Below, in pieces: positions 7,963-18,794 of a stretch of DNA of 64,000 nucleotides. The notes under the pieces are model-generated. The model saw only the letters and a list, made by a program, of their open reading frames with translations. It had not been told where the DNA came from and ran no database searches. A program made the translations under genes and the position numbers. Within the stretch, counting starts at the first letter, position 1; every line of letters begins with the position of its first letter. Source of the DNA: Cyanidium caldarium (lineage: Eukaryota > Rhodophyta > Bangiophyceae > Cyanidiales > Cyanidiaceae); assembly GCA_026184775.1 (NCBI GenBank), contig JANCYW010000006.1, positions 372,001 through 436,000 of the forward strand. Direction: 5' to 3'.

Positions 7963-10269
7963 TCACTCTGGCGACGGCTTTCCGCTGGCGTGCCCCAGAA
8001 ACCACAGCTGCGCCTGCCGCTCCATCGTTTGTAACCACTCCAACGTCGGGCGCAGGCGCTCCATCTGTTCGCGCACGCTGGCCGCCTCCGCTGCTCCCGC
8101 TGACGTGTTGGCGCCGCCGCTGCCGCCGCCGCCTTCGCCGCGCTTCACTCCGTATACCACTTTTTGCGCAGTGGCATCGTGGCCATCGCGCAGAAACGTC
8201 ATCACATCGGGCACTTCCGTGATGTCACTGCCGCCACCCACCTGCTCGGCAATCTGCCGCACCACCTCGGCCTCGTCCAGCCACAGCGTGCAGCCGCCCT
8301 CGGTGGTGAGCGCGCGGTTCTGACACTTGGCGCCTCGGCGGCCGCGACAGGCAGTGTGAAACCACACCCGCTCCGGCACCGAGCTTACCAGCGACAGCGC
8401 CAGGCCGGTGTGATCGGCACGGCCGACGCGCCCCACCCGGTGCACGTAACCGTCGGGTTCATCGGGCAGCGTCATGTTCACCACGTACGGCAGTCCGACC
8501 ACGTCAATGCCGCGTGCTGCTACGTCCGTACAGATCAGGAAGCGGTATTCGCCCTCTTTGAAGCGCGCCAGGTTCTGTCGTCGCTCCGCGGCCGCCAGAC
8601 CGCCGTGCAACACAATAGAGGCGCCGCGTGTGCTCGTCAACCGCTCCAGAAAGCGATGCAGCACGGTGCAGTCCAGCTGGGTGCGACAGAAGAAAATCGC
8701 CTGCTCCATGCGATACCGCTCGATGAGCTGTGCCAACAGCAGCGGTTTGGCCCGTTTCGCGCGCAGCGACAGCGCGTCGGCGTCGTCACCCCGTGTATCC
8801 ACCTGGCTGTGCACGTCGTCGGTGTCGGGCCAGCGATGAACATCACCGGCGCCTTCCAGCACGGCGCGCGCGGTGTCCGGCGTCACCCACAGCACCAGGT
8901 GATCCACCGTGTCCGGCACGCTGTTCATACCTTTGGTGTCCACCCAGGTGGCGTGCTGTTGTACGCGATCGCTCAGCTGGCGCACCTTGCCCGAGTGCAG
9001 CGTGGCCGAGAACAGCACCACCTGCAGACGATGTCTTCGTCCGGTCTGGGGGATGCGGCGCAGCAGGTCGTAGATGAACGGTGCGCTGCCCTGGGCGATC
9101 AGGGCGTCGGCCTCGTCCAGCGCCAGAAAGCGCACCGAGCGCACATCCAGCCGGCCGGTCCGGAGACATTCGGTCAGTCGGCCGACGGTGCAGATGGCAA
9201 TGTCCAGGCGCTGTCGTCCAGTCGAGCCGACCGTGCCGCTGGCGGCGGCGGTACCGCTGGGCATGCCACCCACGAAGCATTCGATGTGCACCGCGGCGCC
9301 GGCATCGGTCTCAGGGAGGTAGCGGGCGAACTTGCGCATCTCCACCTCCACCTGCAGCGCCAACTCGCGGGTCGGCTCCAGCACCAACAGCAGCGGTGCA
9401 TTGCCCGGTCGATCACGTCCCTGCAAATCCAGCGCGCCCTCCTGCGCCGGCGTCGCCGTCTGGGATGCGGTGGCCGCCGCCACTGCCCGATAGTCACCGA
9501 CGTACGAGTGCTGCAGCATCTGAAAATGGGCACGCACCTGCGCACTCTTCAGCAGCACCGTGGGATATAGGGCGCGTCCCTGCAGATCGCCCAGATGCCA
9601 GCTGTATGCCACGCCCAGGTCGATGCCGTTCTTGAAGAAGCGCACTTCGCCCGCATCCAAGTCCAGCGCGCAGGCGATGACGTCGCCCCGTCCAAAGGAC
9701 TCGCCGTACGTCTCAAACGAGCCGCCGCTCGACTTTTTCCCCGTGCCGCCGTACGCATACGAATGTGCATCGGTGCCGAGCGCCAGCGTGGAGTCGGCGG
9801 TGCTCCAGCCCACTCGACACAGCCCATCACCCTCCTCCATCACCACCACCTCGAAACACCACCGCCCGCCAGCGCCCTCCCGAATACCCCGAGTGGCCCG
9901 CGCACCCGCCCACTGGTGCGTATGTCGCGCCGTGCAACGCGCCGCATCCGCCGCGTCCACCTCCAGCAACGCGTCGCGGTCGCGCTCGCTCCACACCCAC
10001 CCTCCCCCAGCCTTCTCCTCCACTTCCTCCAGCGGTTCCGCATCGACCTCTCCAGACGGCACGCTGAGACTCTCGTGCACAATCTGCAACGTCGGCAGAC
10101 AGAAAGCCCCCGTCTTACCCGAGCCGGTCTCCGCGGCCACACACACATCGCCACCGCCTAGTATCAACGGTATGGCTTCCGCCTGCACCGGCGTCGGACA
10201 CAGCCATCCCATCTCCTCGACAGATCGGATGACCTCTGGCATCACGCCCAGCTCCTCAAACGCGGACAT
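7963..10269 (-). CDS. DDX1: DDX1-type DEAD-box RNA helicase with SPRY insert
   Basis: Homologue of animal DDX1, an RNA helicase linked to tRNA splicing (RtcB ligase complex), mRNA processing and DNA-break repair. The start MSAFEELGVMPE aligns with the human start (MAAFSEMGVMPE). The Q motif and motif I (AETGSGKTG, residues 46-54) are followed by a SPRY domain at about 125-255, with the DDX1 signatures GLCRVGWST and GGTGKKS. The helicase resumes at EPTRELA (298-304), then LDEADAL, FSATLHSGK, TDVAARGIDVVG and HRVGRVGRA. The C-terminal region with GGCTLW and VVYGVKRG also follows DDX1. At 768 residues it is near the usual 740. The frame is open upstream to 10614, but that part is not conserved. 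Confidence 0.95.
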   Translation of the reverse strand: MSAFEELGVMPEVIRSVEEMGWLCPTPVQAEAIPLILGGGDVCVAAETGSGKTGAFCLPTLQIVHESLSVPSGEVDAEPLEEVEEKAGGGWVWSERDRDALLEVDAADAARCTARHTHQWAGARATRGIREGAGGRWCFEVVVMEEGDGLCRVGWSTADSTLALGTDAHSYAYGGTGKKSSGGSFETYGESFGRGDVIACALDLDAGEVRFFKNGIDLGVAYSWHLGDLQGRALYPTVLLKSAQVRAHFQMLQHSYVGDYRAVAAATASQTATPAQEGALDLQGRDRPGNAPLLLVLEPTRELALQVEVEMRKFARYLPETDAGAAVHIECFVGGMPSGTAAASGTVGSTGRQRLDIAICTVGRLTECLRTGRLDVRSVRFLALDEADALIAQGSAPFIYDLLRRIPQTGRRHRLQVVLFSATLHSGKVRQLSDRVQQHATWVDTKGMNSVPDTVDHLVLWVTPDTARAVLEGAGDVHRWPDTDDVHSQVDTRGDDADALSLRAKRAKPLLLAQLIERYRMEQAIFFCRTQLDCTVLHRFLERLTSTRGASIVLHGGLAAAERRQNLARFKEGEYRFLICTDVAARGIDVVGLPYVVNMTLPDEPDGYVHRVGRVGRADHTGLALSLVSSVPERVWFHTACRGRRGAKCQNRALTTEGGCTLWLDEAEVVRQIAEQVGGGSDITEVPDVMTFLRDGHDATAQKVVYGVKRGEGGGGSGGANTSAGAAEAASVREQMERLRPTLEWLQTMERQAQLWFLGHASGKPSPE

Positions 10270-10550
10270 TGGGTGGTGCAGAGAGAGCGAGAGCGAGAAT
10301 GTCGGTCGGGTGGTGTCTCGGGTGTTCCCACACCCGCGGCGTCCGAAGACGAGCGCGATGCGATCGGGCGCGCGACGCAACTCGGGAATCGCGCACGTCG
10401 GCGACGAGAACGCACCGGAGGGGAGGCATGAGCGCCGGAGGATGGCACGATGCGGAGAGAGAACTCGAGAGACGCCCAAAGTCCATGGGGCGCCCATGAG
10501 AAATTGTACAGAGTGTGTGGAAGGGCATCGGCATTGGATTGTCTTTGTGA

Positions 10551-12281
10551 ATGTCGCCGGGGCACGCTCTGAACGTGCGTTGGCGGCAGCAGGCGTTGTC
10601 GCGGCTGACCGCACCCGAGCCGGCCCGTCTCAACGCGCTGGTGGGCGGCAGTCCGGACGGGGAGCGGTTTTACACGGTAGACGCGGCGGGCGACCGTTGG
10701 CTGAACGATGAGTTTCCGGGGGATGTTGTCGCGGACGATGGGAGGCCGAGGTTCGGTGGCGTAGAGGCGCACAGGCTGGTGGAGTGGCGACGGTGTCCCG
10801 ACGACGGCCGGCTGTTGCGGACGCGCTGTCTGTCGTTGTCGGTGCCGGGTGTGCGTATGGAGGTGGAGGCGTTGCGACGCGGATCGGTGCTGACGTATGG
10901 AGGGGGTGATGGCGGGGAAGTGGGGCCGATCAATTACGTGGCCTCGGGTTGCATGCCGCTGCTGGGATTTGTGGTGGTGGCGTGTTGCGGCGAGATCGGC
11001 GACGGTGCTGGGCATTTGGTGGTATACCGGCCGCTGGCGGGCACCGATGGGATGCGCGACTGCTTTCCGGTGCGTCTGCCGACGCCCGACTCGGCCTGGT
11101 CGGTGGATGTGTGTCCGTCGCACCCGCTGCTGGCGTACGGCTGCAACGCGCATGAGGTGCGCTTTGTGGAGTTTGCGCTGGCGCCCACGGCCATGCAACG
11201 GCTGCGGCGGGCGGGCCTGGATGTGAGCGGGCGCGCGGCTTGTGGTGTCGGACGCGGCAGCATGCACGACCTGTCCGCGGCCGATCGGATGCGCCTATCC
11301 GCGATGCGTTACGCTGCCGCAGAGTTGTGGGTGCGCGAATGGCCGGAGCGTCTGCAGCATCGCCACAACGTGCCACGAGTGGCGTTCGGTATCGGCGACG
11401 AGGCGCCGCTGGCCTGCTCGGGTGTAAAGATCGCCTCGGCGTCGTTGGATCAGACGGTGCAGTTGGCGTGGATTGTGTCGCCGCGCGACTGGATACGGCG
11501 AGTGCAGCGCGCGTCGACGGGCGATAGCACCGCATCATTGCGAGATGCATCGGGGGAAAGTGCGGCGACGAGCGCTGTGTTATCACCGAGCATGCGCCAC
11601 GTGCTGTCGCCAGGCCGTCGCGACCTGTACCGCGACGGCTGTTGGTTCGTCATGCCCATCAGCTGGCGTTTCTGGGAGCGAAACACCGAGGCAAGATGTG
11701 GGCCTGCATTGTGGCGCTGGAAACCGTCACGGTTTGCAAATGCTCCGCGACCCGATCCGAGACACGAGGCGGTGCGCGCGGTCCTCGTCGATGCGGTCGA
11801 AATGGAGCAGGCCGCCGAGCAGTTCATGCGACACACTGTGCACGCGTGGGTGGTCGGCACCGGTTACTCGCTGTACTTGTATCGCACCCGCGAGTGCGAT
11901 CTATCCGGTAGCCGCTGCATCGATCGGTGTGTCGGCTCGCTGGACCTGTTCGACATCGAATCGAATGCGTTGCACCCCATGTTTGGCATCCGTTTCGGGG
12001 CGTTCAGTGAAGGGTTGCAACTGCTGGCGGTCGCCCTGGGCATGCTACCGCCATCAGCGGGCGGTCTGCGACTGGTGCAGGTGGATCCACACCACGGCAC
12101 CCTACGCGACTGGACATCGCCGAGTGCGGCAGCCAGAGATGCCGCGGACGACGCTCTCGGCAAACCGCTGCGGACGGTGTTGTCCCGCCTGACGGAACCG
12201 ATCTGTGGGATGTGCTTTGAGGGGCGCGAGCTGTTGCTTCTCGACCGGCGTTGCCGTCTCACCTCCATTCAGTTCACATAG
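10551..12281 (+). CDS. Beta-propeller-like protein of unknown function
   Basis: I do not recognise this 576-residue protein. It has no signal peptide or membrane segment and is rich in beta-forming repeats such as WSVDVCPSHPLLAYGCNAH and HNVPRVAFGIGD. The first of these, placed before an acidic Val/Phe strand, is typical of degenerate WD40 blades. The phrase around HNVPRVAF, followed by a Ser-Ala-Ser strand, recalls the fungal CRT10 family (regulators of ribonucleotide reductase genes), but the resemblance is weak. Its start is 281 bases from that of DDX1 on the opposite strand, so the two may share a promoter region. Met at 10551 is the first in frame. Confidence 0.75.
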   Translation: MSPGHALNVRWRQQALSRLTAPEPARLNALVGGSPDGERFYTVDAAGDRWLNDEFPGDVVADDGRPRFGGVEAHRLVEWRRCPDDGRLLRTRCLSLSVPGVRMEVEALRRGSVLTYGGGDGGEVGPINYVASGCMPLLGFVVVACCGEIGDGAGHLVVYRPLAGTDGMRDCFPVRLPTPDSAWSVDVCPSHPLLAYGCNAHEVRFVEFALAPTAMQRLRRAGLDVSGRAACGVGRGSMHDLSAADRMRLSAMRYAAAELWVREWPERLQHRHNVPRVAFGIGDEAPLACSGVKIASASLDQTVQLAWIVSPRDWIRRVQRASTGDSTASLRDASGESAATSAVLSPSMRHVLSPGRRDLYRDGCWFVMPISWRFWERNTEARCGPALWRWKPSRFANAPRPDPRHEAVRAVLVDAVEMEQAAEQFMRHTVHAWVVGTGYSLYLYRTRECDLSGSRCIDRCVGSLDLFDIESNALHPMFGIRFGAFSEGLQLLAVALGMLPPSAGGLRLVQVDPHHGTLRDWTSPSAAARDAADDALGKPLRTVLSRLTEPICGMCFEGRELLLLDRRCRLTSIQFT

Positions 12282-12398: not shown

Positions 12399-14018
12399 AT
12401 GGTCCCTACTGTCCCTCGCACTCGGACGGACGCATCTTCGCTCGCCCGCCCGCCCATCGCCGCGACATCGGGCGGTGCGGTTCCCTTCGCCAAAACCCGG
12501 GCGCACGCGCGCGCGCATTTTCACTTTCCGGTGCGCGGGTGCGCGTGCGGAGGAGGTTCGATTCGCGGTGGACGCTTTCGAGAGCGGGTGTTGCGTCGAA
12601 CAGCCTTCCATTCGCTTATGTGGGTCGTGCAGACGACGCTCATTTCGCGGAAGTTCGGCACTGTCCACGCCGGACATGATGACGGTCACCATGAATCGCC
12701 GTGGAGAGCGGCGAGGCCGCCACGATCGCCTCGTCGGCCGCGCTGGCGGTGCGCCCAGGCGGACGTGGAGCGTCGAGTCGACAGCGACAACTACGCGGTG
12801 AACACCGCGACGCTGCAAGAGGATCCAGCAACCAATCTGAAGGGATGGATTAAGACGCGCGGCTCGCTGGTTCCCGGACGCGAAGTGGTGTACTGGTTTA
12901 CGGGGGACATTCACGCGTACGTGGACAACGGCGGGGCGACGCGGTTGTTCCGTTTCGAGGGCTACAACATCGGCCGCTGTGTGCCGCAAGAGGGCGGCTG
13001 GCGCCTGCTCACTCGCGAAGTGGGACTTTATCGCGATGCGGAGACCGGCGAGATCCTGCACGGCGAGTGGCAGAACCCGTTCACCAATCGTCTGAACGAG
13101 GTGGTGCACGTGTGGAACGACCCGGTGAATCAGGAGTTTTCGCTGGTGAGCCGGCGCACCGGACGGCCGTTTCTGGTGCCCACGACGCGCAGCGGCAAAG
13201 ACATCTACTGGCACATGGAGCTGTTCCTGCGGTATCCGAATCCGCTGCCGCGCAGCGAGTTTCCGGAGAGCTCGGCCAGCAACCTGTACCAGAGCGCCGA
13301 GCTGTTCCAGTTTTTCTGCGAGGAGAGCGACTTGGCGGATGCGCGCCTCGACTCGGCGCCGTGCCAATTGAGTTGGGTGCGCGTCAGCCAGTGGTTACCG
13401 TGGATGAACATGGGCAGCCGACCCGGCCGCCTGGTGTACCACTGCCGTGGCAAGAAGCTGGAGCACGGCTTCGCAGACTTGCCCGAGGATGTACGCGCCT
13501 ACGTGCAGCGCGAGCATCCAGAATATCAGCAGGCGCCGCAAGCGTTCACCGCGCCCAACGAGACCAGCTGGACCTATTTCCGCAAGATGATCACCGAGAG
13601 GGGCGCGCCGCGCATCGACGGCAGCGTCGCAGCCCCGGATGCTCCGCCGAGCACTCCGCCCTCCCCGCGGCGTCTGTCGCCGCTGGATCAGGCGCCCGTA
13701 CTGCGCCGCTTCACCCGCGCAGATCTGGCGCAGTACGATGGCTCGGATGCGGGCCGCGGCATCTACATCTCGGTGAACCGACGCGTGTTTGACGTCACCT
13801 CAGGCGCCCGCAACTACGGCCGTGGACAGCCGTACAATGTGCTGGCCGGACGAGACGCCAGCAAAGCGCTGGTGCGGGCGGATCTGTCGCCTCGCTGGCT
13901 CGACCTCAACGAGCCGCTCATCGTGATCGACGACCTGAGCGAAGACGAGCGTGCCGTGCTGGAGCACTGGACGCGGTACTTTGCCGATTCGTATCCCGAG
14001 ATAGGGTACCTCGTCTGA
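12399..14018 (+). CDS. DUF1838 domain fused to a cytochrome b5-like (MAPR) domain
   Basis: Residues of about 130-400 resemble DUF1838, a mainly bacterial domain of unknown function. Matching phrases are LFRFEGYNIGR, EVGLYRDAETGEIL and VVHVWNDPVNQEF. A Pro/Ser linker follows. Residues 432-539 then form a heme/steroid-binding domain of the MAPR type (as in PGRMC1), with LRRFTRADLAQYDGS, VFDVTSG, NYGRGQPYNVLAGRDASKAL and a closing W..YFADSYPEIGYL. MAPR proteins bind heme through Tyr rather than the His pair of cytochrome b5, and no His pair is seen here. The first 120 residues are Arg/Ala-rich and could be an organelle-targeting leader or untranslated; Met at 12618 is an alternative start. The fusion is unusual and its reaction is unknown. 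Confidence 0.82.
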   Translation: MVPTVPRTRTDASSLARPPIAATSGGAVPFAKTRAHARAHFHFPVRGCACGGGSIRGGRFRERVLRRTAFHSLMWVVQTTLISRKFGTVHAGHDDGHHESPWRAARPPRSPRRPRWRCAQADVERRVDSDNYAVNTATLQEDPATNLKGWIKTRGSLVPGREVVYWFTGDIHAYVDNGGATRLFRFEGYNIGRCVPQEGGWRLLTREVGLYRDAETGEILHGEWQNPFTNRLNEVVHVWNDPVNQEFSLVSRRTGRPFLVPTTRSGKDIYWHMELFLRYPNPLPRSEFPESSASNLYQSAELFQFFCEESDLADARLDSAPCQLSWVRVSQWLPWMNMGSRPGRLVYHCRGKKLEHGFADLPEDVRAYVQREHPEYQQAPQAFTAPNETSWTYFRKMITERGAPRIDGSVAAPDAPPSTPPSPRRLSPLDQAPVLRRFTRADLAQYDGSDAGRGIYISVNRRVFDVTSGARNYGRGQPYNVLAGRDASKALVRADLSPRWLDLNEPLIVIDDLSEDERAVLEHWTRYFADSYPEIGYLV

Positions 14019-14213: not shown

Positions 14214-15236
14214 ATGGGTCTCGGTAAAGTAGGTATGGAGGTTGGGGGCCGAGAGGCTGCTGTGCCCCCTCCGCTCTTCTGTCCGACAACCATCGCGCCC
14301 GGCCGGCGACATCGTTGCCGCTGGCGCATCCCGCACACACCGTGCAGCGCGCGAAAGCGACGCCTGTCGGGCGTGCTGCTCACCTCACGTCTCTCTCGCG
14401 CCAACTTCTCTCCGGCGCCAAGCACCCGCGTTACCCGCTTCCGTCCGTGCATCGACATTCACGACGGCCGGGTCAAGCAAGTGGTGGGGTCGACGCTGAC
14501 CGCCGATGGCGCTGCAGTGCAGCAGACCAACTTTGAGACGGACGTGCCGGCGTCCTACTTTGCGGACCGTTATCGCGAGGACCGCCTGCCCGGTGGTCAT
14601 GTCATTATCCTCGGGGGCGAGCGCGCGGCATCGGAGCGAGCGGCGCTCGAGGCGCTGGCGGCTTTTCCGCACGGACTGCAGTTTGGCGGAGGCGTCTCTG
14701 CGGACAACGCGCGGCATTACTTGGATGCCGGCGCCAGCCACGTCATCGTCACCTCGTACGTATTCCATCACGGCGCCGTGGATATCGGGCGGCTGGAGCA
14801 ACTGCGGCGCGTCACCGGTCGGGAACGCCTGGTGTTAGACTTGAGCTGCCGACCACATCAAGTCGATGACACTGTCGAATACTTTGTGTATACGGAGCGT
14901 TGGACGCGGCGGACCGATGTGCGCCTGGATGCCACCTCTTTGCAGCGCCTGGCGGAGTACTGCAGCGAGTTTCTGGTGCACGCGGTGGACGTGGAGGGCA
15001 AGAAGTGCGGCTTGGACGAGACGCTGGTGCAACGGTTGGCCGACATCTCGCCCATCCCAGTGACGTATGCGGGCGGGGTGCGCAGCGTCGGCGACCTGGA
15101 GTACGTCCGCCAAGCCGGCGGCGGCCGCGTCGATGTGACGGTCGGCAGCGCGTTGGACCTGTTTGGCGGCACGCTGCCCTACACCGAAGCCGTCGCCTGG
15201 CAACGCCTGGTAGAGCGCGCGAAGGAGAGTGTGTAA
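14214..15236 (+). CDS. HIS6: HisA: phosphoribosylformimino-AICAR-P isomerase
   Basis: Fourth-step isomerase of histidine synthesis (ProFAR to PRFAR), a TIM-barrel enzyme. It is of the eukaryotic HIS6/HISN3 type, shown by FRPCIDIHDGRVKQVVG near residue 75, LQFGGGVSADNA, LVLDLSCR, HAVDVEGKKCGLDE and VTYAGGVRS. The catalytic Asp pair fits the first beta strand (CIDIHDG) and a later one (AVDVEGK). About 70 extra N-terminal residues, rich in Arg, Ser and Pro, suggest plastid import, as in plants. The first Met is at 14214 and Met9 is an alternative. Downstream, gyrase A follows on the same strand. Confidence 0.93.
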   Translation: MGLGKVGMEVGGREAAVPPPLFCPTTIAPGRRHRCRWRIPHTPCSARKRRLSGVLLTSRLSRANFSPAPSTRVTRFRPCIDIHDGRVKQVVGSTLTADGAAVQQTNFETDVPASYFADRYREDRLPGGHVIILGGERAASERAALEALAAFPHGLQFGGGVSADNARHYLDAGASHVIVTSYVFHHGAVDIGRLEQLRRVTGRERLVLDLSCRPHQVDDTVEYFVYTERWTRRTDVRLDATSLQRLAEYCSEFLVHAVDVEGKKCGLDETLVQRLADISPIPVTYAGGVRSVGDLEYVRQAGGGRVDVTVGSALDLFGGTLPYTEAVAWQRLVERAKESV

Positions 15237-15471
15237 GATTGCGGCACACGACCGTATGCATGCGGCACTCCCGTTGTCTCGTTCCGCGTGTGGCAGTTCC
15301 CGTTCATCGTTTGCGTGGAGATCCCCCTCCCGCCATTCCACATGAGACATTTTGCGCTAATCTATGTCACGTCTCCGACACCGGCCGCCAACGGCGACGC
15401 CTCTGACCACATTCCTTGCGTGGCGGTCGGTGCTCTTTGAAAATCACGCTCGCCCACCTCACGCCGCCGCT

Positions 15472-18387
15472 ATGTTCTCGCTGGCATTTCTGCCCACCGT
15501 TCTACCGTGGCGCCGCCAAGGAGGGGGCCAGGCGGGCGGGCGCAGTGTCGACCGCCCCGTGCAATGGCCAACTGCAGCCGTCGGGCGAGGTGCGTTTGTC
15601 GTCTCGCGCAACCCCTCATTTCCTCTACCCGTCGGCGCCGAACCAGCGAGCGGCTCCCGGCAGGCACCATGTTTCCTTCTCCGCATGGCTGAGGTGAAGG
15701 CGCCAACTGCTGCCGACCTAAACGGCAGCAGCGGCGGCGGCGGCGATGGTGATGGCGGCGGGACGGCCACCCTGACGGCGGGCAACATCGAGCCGTCGGA
15801 CGTGACCCAGATCCTCTCGCGCTCCTACCTAGAGTACGCACTGAGTGTCATCCATGCGCGAGCACTGCCCGATGCCCGCGACGGCCTCAAACCGGTGCAC
15901 CGACGCATTCTGTATGCGATGAGCCAGCTGGGCCTCAATCCGAACTCGCAGTTCCGCAAGTGTGCTCGCGTGGTGGGCGAAGTGCTCGGACGCTTTCATC
16001 CACACGGCGACAGCGCGGTGTACGATGCGCTCATTCGCATGGCGCAACCGTTCTCTATGCTGGAGCCGCTGGTGGACGGACAGGGCAATTTGGGGTCAGT
16101 GGACGGCGACAAGGCCGCCGCCATGCGCTACACCGAATGCCGACTCACTTCGCTCAGCAAAGTGGCGCTGCTGGCCGACTTGGATCGGGCCACGGTGGAT
16201 TTTGCGCCCAACTTTGACGGCTCCGATAACGAGCCGGCAGTGTTGCCGGCGCGCGTGCCCAACCTGTTGCTCAACGGCTCGCACGGCATTGCGGTAGGCA
16301 TGGCCACCAATGTGCCGCCGCATAACCTCAGCGAGCTGGTCGCCGCGCTGCAAGCGCTGATCGAGAACCCGGAACTGTCGGACGAGGAGCTCATCGCGTA
16401 CGTGCCCGCGCCGGACTTTCCCACCGGCGGTCTCATTTTGGACACTGACGGGGCGCGCCAACTGTACACCACCGGCTCCGGGAGCGTGATGGTGCGCGCG
16501 AAGACCTCTTTCGAGCGAATCCGCGCCAAGGGCCGGCTCGCCCGCGATGCCATTATCGTGCATGAATTGCCATACCAAGTGGTGAAGGCGGCGCTGTTGG
16601 CGCGCATCGCCGAACTGGTCAACGAAAGGAAACTCGATGGCATCGCCGACCTGCGCGACGAGAGCGACCGCGACGGCATGCGTGTCGTCATCGAGATGAA
16701 ACAGAACGCTGACAAGAACGTCGTGTTGAACAATCTGTTCAACGCTACCGCGCTGCAGACGTCGTTCGGCGGCAACATGGTTGCGCTGGTGGGCCGCAAG
16801 CCCGAGCGTCTCACCCTGAAACGCTCGCTGCAGGTGTTTGTGGAGCATCGCGTGGAGGTGGTGCGGCGACGGAGCCGCTTCGAGCTGGAGCGGGCGCGCG
16901 AACGGGAGCACATCGTGCAGGGTCTGCTGACGGCGCTGCAGTCGCTGTCGGAGGTGATTCGGACGATACGGGAGGCGGCCACGGTGCAGGATGCGCGCCA
17001 GGCGCTCACTGCCCCTGAGGGGGCGTTCCGCCTCAGCGAGCCGCAGGCGGAGGCTATTCTGTCCATGCAGCTGCGCCGGTTGACCCAGCTGGAGTCGGAG
17101 CGGCTGCGGACCGAGGGCGCCGAGCTGGCGGTGCGCATTGCCGATCTGGAGCACGTGTTGGCCAATCGGTCGCGCGTAATGCAGATCATCGCCGACGAGC
17201 TGCGCGAGCTCGACCGCCAGTACGGCAAGCCGCGGCGCTCGCAAATCGTCGATTACAACGGCCGGCTGACGTCGCGCGATGTGGTGCCCAACGGCTCATC
17301 GGTAATCATCGTCAGCAAGCAGGGCTACCTGAAACGGGTGCCGCTCAGCGAGTTTCAGGCGCACGGTCGCGGTCACGTGGGCGTGCGCGGTGCGCAAATC
17401 CGCGAGAACGACTCGGTGGCGCATTTCTTCGCGTGTCAGGATCACGACGCGGTGTTGGCGGTGTCGGAGCGCGGCGTGGCGTACACGGTGCACGCGTTTG
17501 AGATTCCGCGCGCCTCGCGGACGGCGCGCGGCGTGCCCATTCACGAGGTTTTCCCGGGCATCGGTATGAACGTGAGCGACGTGGAGGGCAACGGGATGTC
17601 GGTGACGTCGACCGACGACGCGTCCGACATGCACCTGTTGCCGCGACTGAGTTCCCTCATGCCGGTGTCCACTTTCGATGCCGACACGCACATCCTGTTG
17701 CTCACGCGCAAGGGATGGCTGAAGCGTACGCCGCTATCTGCGTTTGACCACGTGCGATCGAACGGTCTGATTATTCTGTCGTTGGATGCCGACGATCAGG
17801 TCGGCTGGGTGCAGTTGTGTCGAACCGGCGACACGGTGGTGTTGGCGTCGGCGCGGGGACAGGTGGCGCGCATGCTGGTGGCCGACCAGACGTTGCGGGC
17901 GACGGGCCGCACCAGCCGCGGCGTGCTGTCGATGAAGCTGCGGTCGGATGATAACATCGCGGACATGGCGGTGATCCGCCAGCCGGCGGATGGAGAAGAG
18001 GTGGCGTCGTTGTTGGCCATCACAGCGCTGGGCCACGGCAAGCGCATGAATGTGGAGGATTTCCGGGTGCTGGGTAGACGCACCCAGGGCGTACGCGGTA
18101 TCCGACTGCGCCGCGACCGCAACGACCGGCTGCTGTGTTTGCGGACGGTGCAGCCGGGCGATCACCTGGTGCTCATCACCGAGATGGGCACGGTGGCCCG
18201 TTTCTCAGCGGCAAACATTCCGCTGCGGAGTCGAACGGCCGGCGGGGTGATTGTGCAGAAACTGCGACCCGGTGATCGCGTGGCCCAATGCAGCGTGTCC
18301 ACCGTCGATGATGAGGAGGACGAGGACGACGGCGAGGAAGAGGAGGCGGCGGCGGCGGCGGATGAGGAGACCGACCGCAATAGCTAG
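15472..18387 (+). CDS. GYRA: DNA gyrase subunit A (organellar)
   Basis: Breakage-reunion subunit of the bacterial-type topoisomerase that works with GyrB on organelle DNA. Typical GyrA sequence includes [29 protein letters not shown] and [17 protein letters not shown]. The catalytic Tyr220 lies in AAAMRYTE, and [12 protein letters not shown] follows. The C-terminal half holds the six-bladed DNA-wrapping domain. Its GyrA box, normally QRRGGKG, reads AHGRGHVG here (17356-17391). The protein ends in an acidic tail of Glu, Asp and Ala. The frame is open from 15364, but Met at 15472 gives MFSLAF, an early-Phe transit peptide, so I prefer it. Probably plastid or dual plastid/mitochondrial. Confidence 0.95.
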
Positions 18388-18794
18388 GGACCGCAGAATG
18401 GATGTTCCGTGTAAACCGCCACGATTCGGTGCCCGAGCAGTGGTCTCTCTTACAGACGATGCCACGCAGCGCCTATCCGATTCCGCGGTTCCCGCATTCG
18501 ACTTGTCGACGGCACCCGCACATCGCGGAGTTCCATCCGTCACGTGGCCCGGCCGTGACAGCCTTCCCTGTGACGCGAGCTGGACGGCCAACGCGTCACG
18601 TTTGGCCAAGCGGCATCCCGCTCGCGTTGCCTTCATGTCCAACGTTGCCGCTGGCCGTGACTGTCTCTAGCGCTTGCTCTGCCCTGGCTGTGGCCCGCTG
18701 GCGAAGATTTGTGTGTGTGCGTGCGCGCAGATTATCCCAGTACGCAATCACGGATTCGTCTGGGCAGTTGCCGAAACCGAAGCGCCGGCGGCGA
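18388..18794. other. Intergenic region upstream of the WDR26-like gene
   Basis: The WDR26-like frame is open back to 18402, but this stretch translates as unconserved Pro/Arg/Ser sequence. No other signal is seen. Confidence 0.45.

Follow-up and report, generated by a model that had tools for sequence, protein, structure and literature searches.

Fusions of cytochrome b5 with oxygenases are common in eukaryotes, and cytochrome b5 also serves the desaturases to which it is fused. The protein considered here, from the red alga Cyanidium caldarium, carries a fused heme module of the same broad superfamily, but the module is of the MAPR type, with tyrosine at the position of the iron ligand, and its partner, DUF1838, is no known oxygenase. 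According to the accessible part of PMC11130977, the heme iron in the PGRMC1 crystal is five-coordinate, with Tyr113 as the axial ligand, while that of cytochrome b5 is six-coordinate; Tyr107, Lys163, and Tyr164 of PGRMC1 hold the heme by hydrogen bonds, and results obtained with a Tyr113Phe mutant conflict. DUF1838 is nearly absent from the literature searched, being named in one gene table, where (in the accessible part of PMC5031334) ArtU of the aurantimycin cluster is listed as DUF1838. The search found no literature on PGRMC in Cyanidioschyzon and, among the papers listed, none that looked relevant to the domain architecture of MAPR or cytochrome b5 proteins in red algae. As for the genomes, the accessible part of PMC9812998 describes three Cyanidiales with 20 chromosomes each and a mean chromosome size of 439.4 to 827.3 kb (8.8 Mbp in total for Cyanidium and 12.0 Mbp for Cyanidiococcus), the chromosome-level genome of Cyanidium having under 50 introns and intergenic distances that average 319.7 bp. 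The genome examined here, a single assembly, comprises 8,787,356 bases in 20 contigs.

The gene lies in the 64-kb stretch of DNA that was analyzed (the window, bases 372001-436000 of contig 6), in a frame found exactly where a preliminary description had put it and containing all five of the phrases quoted there. Its parts are as follows.

12399..14018, + strand: open frame, the longest possible reading of the gene, 539 aa
12618..12806, + strand: candidate N-terminus from Met74, rich in arginine, its ATG being the sole later one in frame ahead of the domain
12807..13602, + strand: DUF1838 domain with a strand-rich fold (residues 161-397 by Pfam, residues 137-401 as modeled)
13603..13694, + strand: proline-rich linker, free of stops and in the same frame, with low pLDDT in a two-domain model
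13695..14015, + strand: MAPR domain (PGRMC type), from Pfam, solved MAPR chains, and residue alignment

The window holds 70 open reading frames of at least 250 amino acids, many of them overlapping, so the length of a frame is by itself no proof here, and it is the domains that provide the evidence. Both were located by profile search, as the preliminary description had proposed. DUF1838 (PF08894) matches at residues 161-397 with 249.1 bits against a cut-off of 25, covering positions 2-231 of the 232 in the Pfam model, and Cyt-b5 (PF00173) matches at residues 439-493 with 31 bits against a cut-off of 23.7. The full protein matches no other Pfam family at E values up to 1, no NCBIfam family at E 1, and no PHROGs family at E 0.1.

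The frame was also examined by a codon-usage scan trained on the other frames of the window. Throughout 12732 to 13947, and so also in the linker, each step of the scan gave this frame the best of the six scores; its narrowest lead came at 13542, where it scored 0.16 and the opposite strand 0.12. GC3 is 0.82 in the DUF1838 part, 0.81 in the linker, and 0.79 in the MAPR part, compared with 0.754-0.804 in eight other frames of the window. Codon use across the linker is thus host-like, and the fusion is carried by a single open frame. One might still ask whether an error of assembly or reading joined two genes, as the sequence comes from one assembly and the N-terminus has no clear coding signal. 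The single open frame and the codon use through the linker argue against this, as does the chromosome-level, intron-poor character of the genome described in the accessible part of PMC9812998, and we consider such an artefact very improbable indeed.

The beginning of the gene is less clear than the rest. Before about 12730 there is no clear coding signal in any frame, which affects the first 70-100 residues. In-frame ATGs occur at 12399, at 12618, and then at 13215, inside the DUF1838 domain, with none between the last two, and the real start is either the ATG at 12618 or an unmapped piece upstream. The leader read from 12618 counts 11 Arg/Lys and 7 Asp/Glu in its 64 residues and is possibly a targeting peptide. 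A short exon upstream of the gene is also possible, three donor-acceptor pairs being compatible with the frame. The preceding frame, of 576 amino acids at 10551-12281, has no Pfam match at E 1e-4 and overlaps by 64 bases a frame on the opposite strand (7963-10614) that encodes a DEAD-box helicase with a SPRY domain. Neighbors of the fusion gene in the window include a HisA-type protein at 14214 and a WD40/LisH protein at 18402. A gene for the A subunit of DNA gyrase lies at 15364-18387 in this nuclear genome.

The DUF1838 part, which has the only match to its family in the whole algal genome, is complete. In an alignment of 37 proteins (including the alga and three divergent paralogues), all 37 match PF08894 and no second family at E 0.01. 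At least 85% of the rows agree in 54 columns, of which the alga keeps 50, including all those without variation in the 37 rows; it departs from the consensus at residues 167, 172, 176, and 281, in columns conserved in 32-34 of the 37 rows. Ten conserved polar residues are retained: Arg206, Glu207, His237, Asn240, Asp241, Asn244, Glu301, Arg328, Asn387, and Ser390. Like the DUF1838 proteins of Ktedonobacteria and ArtU, then, the algal protein has the whole domain and these ten residues; unlike the bacterial proteins, it is extended at the N-terminus and, past a linker, carries MAPR at the C-terminus.

When the C-terminal part was compared with solved structures, four chains matched at E values up to 10: 1t0g (2.9e-15, residues 435-538) and 1j03 (6.5e-15), both of which we take to be Arabidopsis proteins, 4x8y, which is PGRMC1 (5.5e-11), and the cytochrome B5 chain 6nzx, at only 0.0013. 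The single cytochrome B5 chain is a far poorer match than any of the MAPR chains, and a bis-histidine cytochrome b5 was rejected as the identity of this part. In a three-row alignment the algal MAPR is 37% identical to each of 1t0g and 4x8y and shares with them the motif elements FDVT.G, YG, Y, and AG.DAS, besides three tyrosines: Tyr473, Tyr479, and Tyr532 align with Tyr107, Tyr113, and Tyr164 of PGRMC1, on our own presumed placing of the PGRMC1 residue numbers on the letters of 4x8y. It differs from PGRMC1, 1t0g, and 1j03 in being C-terminal to another domain and in having serine (Ser531) at the position of Lys163, a heme contact that does not define the family. The algal MAPR part likely binds heme, judging from the tyrosines, and the serine may weaken the binding.

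These results bear out the fusion of DUF1838 and MAPR that the preliminary description proposed. Given the strength of the matches on both sides, the stop-free frame, and the coding signal through the linker, a complete DUF1838 domain is joined in frame to a MAPR domain in one nuclear gene.

The alga also has an ordinary PGRMC-like protein. PF00173 has 11 matches in the algal genome, that in the fusion included, but with the MAPR part as query there are only two at E values up to 10: the fusion itself and a stand-alone MAPR gene of 150 amino acids on contig 16 (169284-169592; L105:1776-2225, minus strand). Since these are the only MAPR matches, the fusion holds a second copy of MAPR. The two are 39% identical over 109 columns, and the stand-alone protein, in contrast to the fused domain, has a hydrophobic N-terminal stretch (by eye) and lysine at the position of Lys163. 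With a separate gene for the ordinary protein, a linker modeled with low confidence, and intergenic distances as short as those described for Cyanidium (PMC9812998, accessible part), the fusion might be nothing but the tethering of two unrelated activities, one that drift has fixed in a highly compact genome, with MAPR serving only as anchor or stabilizer. We think this unlikely, though it deserves to be taken seriously. The tyrosines of the MAPR part and the ten polar residues of DUF1838 have both been kept, which suggests selection on both parts.

Is the combination found elsewhere? All open frames of at least 40 amino acids in 124 loci were scanned with the MAPR part at E 0.01, and matches were confined to five algal loci (three of the fusion and two of the stand-alone gene) and to L121-L123, loci that had been chosen for weakly resembling that part. 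The 101 loci with DUF1838 from other organisms (L010-L104 and L115-L120, with some places represented twice) gave no MAPR match within flanks of at most 8 kb. A reading of 488 amino acids with DUF1838 in L116 was considered as a fusion and rejected, its extra part lying upstream and the protein ending with the DUF1838 domain. In 301 Chloroflexota genomes the MAPR part is matched in just three, and weakly (20.9-24.2 bits), and plasmid records contributed one more, at E 0.03; PGRMC1 and the plant-type chains are matched far better than any of these. Also, of 12 bacterial genomes with DUF1838 that were examined, 11 have no PF00173 domain at E 0.001, and in the twelfth the match is on a different contig from the DUF1838 genes. 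DUF1838 thus does not generally need such a domain.

This last result bears on what the two parts may do for each other. The preliminary description suggested that DUF1838 might be an oxygenase-like or a lipid- or steroid-handling domain requiring heme or the delivery of electrons, and one can picture a redox pair in which an oxygenase-like DUF1838 receives electrons or heme from MAPR, much as fused desaturases are supplied by cytochrome b5. The existence of the fusion, the three tyrosines that hold heme in PGRMC1, and the many cytochrome b5-oxygenase fusions of eukaryotes all speak for such a pair. However, 11 of the 12 DUF1838 bacteria examined show no PF00173, the MAPR chains are far closer matches than the cytochrome B5 chain, and neither Pfam nor NCBIfam relates DUF1838 to a known enzyme family. 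Moreover, a five-coordinate heme bound through tyrosine, as described for PGRMC1 (PMC11130977, accessible part), is unlike that of cytochrome b5. We regard a redox pair as decidedly improbable. A requirement of DUF1838 as such for heme or electrons is not supported. No evidence of oxygenase-like chemistry was found, while the handling of lipids or steroids is weakly suggested by the strand-rich fold.

That fold was predicted with confidence. Modeled alone by AlphaFold2 from the 37-protein alignment, DUF1838 has many long strands, a mean pLDDT of 95.3, and a pTM of 0.90. A Foldseek search of the PDB returned three chains at E values up to 0.001 (the beta barrel of ApoB, at 4.4e-6, and two chains O of photosystem II), and the query-normalized TM-scores were at most 0.32 among the 50 matches listed. 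The matches are weak and mixed, including photosystem II chain O, ApoB, outer-membrane proteins, and the haemophore 8xjc (E about 0.01), and a profile search of PDB sequences found one chain, at E 0.11. We read the predicted fold as barrel-like, without a convincing solved relative. Since no solved structure matches it well, the class of ligand and the catalysis proposed below are guesses. The two-domain model gave a linker of low pLDDT, a MAPR part of low confidence, and weak fold matches in the PDB and in a viral library, and it was because of these weak matches that DUF1838 was modeled and searched by itself, with weak matches again. The alignment behind the two-domain model held no MAPR relatives, and with the MAPR part at low confidence, the identity of that domain rests on its sequence.

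The closest relatives of the algal DUF1838 were sought by a scan of genome contigs, which confirmed at least 551 of 592 stretches and from which the best 80 loci were kept. Among these 80, the five best are from Ktedonobacteria (52-50% identity), the first being Thermosporothrix, at 52%. The class was confirmed for Thermosporothrix and Thermogemmatispora and is presumed for the rest. Below them come Bacteroidota, Cloacimonadota, and others, with Streptomyces accounting for the majority of the 80 loci. Counting the starting genome of each sample, DUF1838 occurs in 4 of 301 Chloroflexota genomes, 3 of 396 Actinomycetota, and 7 of 395 Bacteroidota (six of the seven over the cut-off). Relatives are present on 13 of 72,556 plasmid records and on none of the phage records, and the pattern matches in viral contigs (49 and 34) were discarded, none being a relative. 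The family is thus patchy in bacteria. Some Bacteroidota carry DUF1838 in tandem pairs (L029:4722-6549, L038:5821-7835, and L043:5869-7705), the second copy strongly divergent, with 28-31% identity to the alga.

Neither of two trees places the alga among the DUF1838 rows. The first had 40 rows, some very long; the second, of 34 rows, left out four plasmid rows and the three divergent paralogues from Bacteroidota and took in one further row, from Streptomyces. In the latter the alga falls on the side that contains seven rows each from Ktedonobacteria and Bacteroidota (62/75), on a long branch of 1.16. Holding it with the seven Ktedonobacteria costs 2.50 log units (p-AU 0.132), and holding it with these plus an Anaerolineae row costs 4.57 (p-AU 0.142), neither arrangement being rejected. 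It is plausible, in view of relatives that are bacterial in a comparison where the alga is the sole eukaryote, that the algal DUF1838 arrived by transfer from bacteria. As the tree cannot place the alga, neither transfer nor its direction is proven. The earlier suggestion that the gene was assembled after such a transfer gains a little from the bacterial relatives and from the lack of a MAPR match in the 101 DUF1838 loci.

Bacterial gene neighborhoods offer some indication of the metabolic setting. Over 120 loci and the window, surveyed by tblastn, an aldehyde dehydrogenase turned up in 12 loci (three weak algal matches away from the fusion, five Bacteroidota, L034, L115, L116, and the Anaerolineae locus L024), a zinc-type reductase in 7 (six Bacteroidota and one weak Streptomyces match), a hydratase of the LeuC/aconitase type in 7 (all in Bacteroidota sets, none weak), a DUF3598-type protein in 8 (five Bacteroidota and L034, L115, and L116, which are from Actinomycetota sets), and a glyoxalase-like protein in 3. 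Pfam supports these names in at least one member each: the reductase, the hydratase, and DUF3598, the aldehyde dehydrogenase in L043, L034, and L116, and the glyoxalase in L024; the member of the glyoxalase-like group in L027 has no Pfam match. Only a minority of the loci have the dehydrogenase, reductase, and hydratase genes as neighbors, and hardly any of these are from Streptomyces, the largest group. In the three Actinomycetota loci, as in Bacteroidota, DUF1838 has DUF3598-type and aldehyde dehydrogenase genes in its vicinity, a patchy neighborhood that crosses phyla. DUF3598 itself was tried as a distant homologue of DUF1838 and rejected (hhalign probability 0.1%, E 0.43, with only 7 DUF3598 rows); it has no match in the algal genome.

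These neighbors also bear on another conceivable function. DUF1838 might bind a tetrapyrrole or one of its breakdown products and exchange it with the heme site of MAPR, so that heme is buffered or moved. The strand-rich fold, the weak match to a haemophore, and the retained tyrosines of MAPR would suit a carrier of this sort. Against it, the fold matches are weak and mixed, and the recurring neighbors in bacteria are genes for dehydrogenases, reductases, and hydratases. A tetrapyrrole carrier strikes us as rather improbable.

The account we favor, tentatively and at somewhat less than even confidence, is of a bacterial-type DUF1838 domain, ligand-binding or catalytic, that in the alga is tethered to a MAPR docking module able to bind heme. 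The DUF1838 part would have come from a bacterium and been joined to a eukaryotic copy of MAPR within the algal lineage. It would be a ligand-binding, probably catalytic, strand-rich (barrel-like) domain, and its substrate may be a small, perhaps hydrophobic, metabolite of the carbonyl type. The MAPR part would bind heme through Tyr479 and, feeding no electrons to DUF1838, would serve for docking or the sensing of heme, bringing DUF1838 to a membrane-bound or P450 partner. Domain matches, the coding signal of the linker, the similar GC3, the bacterial type of DUF1838, the conserved residues, the confident fold, the three retained tyrosines of MAPR, the metabolic neighbors, and ArtU count in favor of the account, while the weak fold matches, the unplaced alga, the four departures from consensus, the change of Lys163 to serine, the minority status of the neighbors, and the lack of a DUF3598 match in the alga count against it. 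The P450 partner is one that we infer by analogy: in Thermosporothrix hazakensis DUF1838 has a cytochrome P450 gene close by (L014:5659-6981, minus strand), which clusters with frames in 6 Streptomyces loci, and the algal genome has six matches to PF00067 over the cut-off (two of them partial).

A bolder version, speculative and in our estimation improbable, would have a rare barrel-like bacterial enzyme captured by thermoacidophilic red algae, the second copy of MAPR letting the state of heme or a P450 partner gate the reaction of a metabolite. If that were true, the function of the entire DUF1838 family would have its first clue in this fusion. Being naturally fused to a domain whose chemistry is known, DUF1838 has a partner that can be tested. 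Since 11 of 12 bacteria with DUF1838 that were examined have no Cyt-b5 or MAPR domain, that partner would seem to be an algal addition, and if so, setting the alga beside the bacteria could show what belongs to the core reaction and what to its control.
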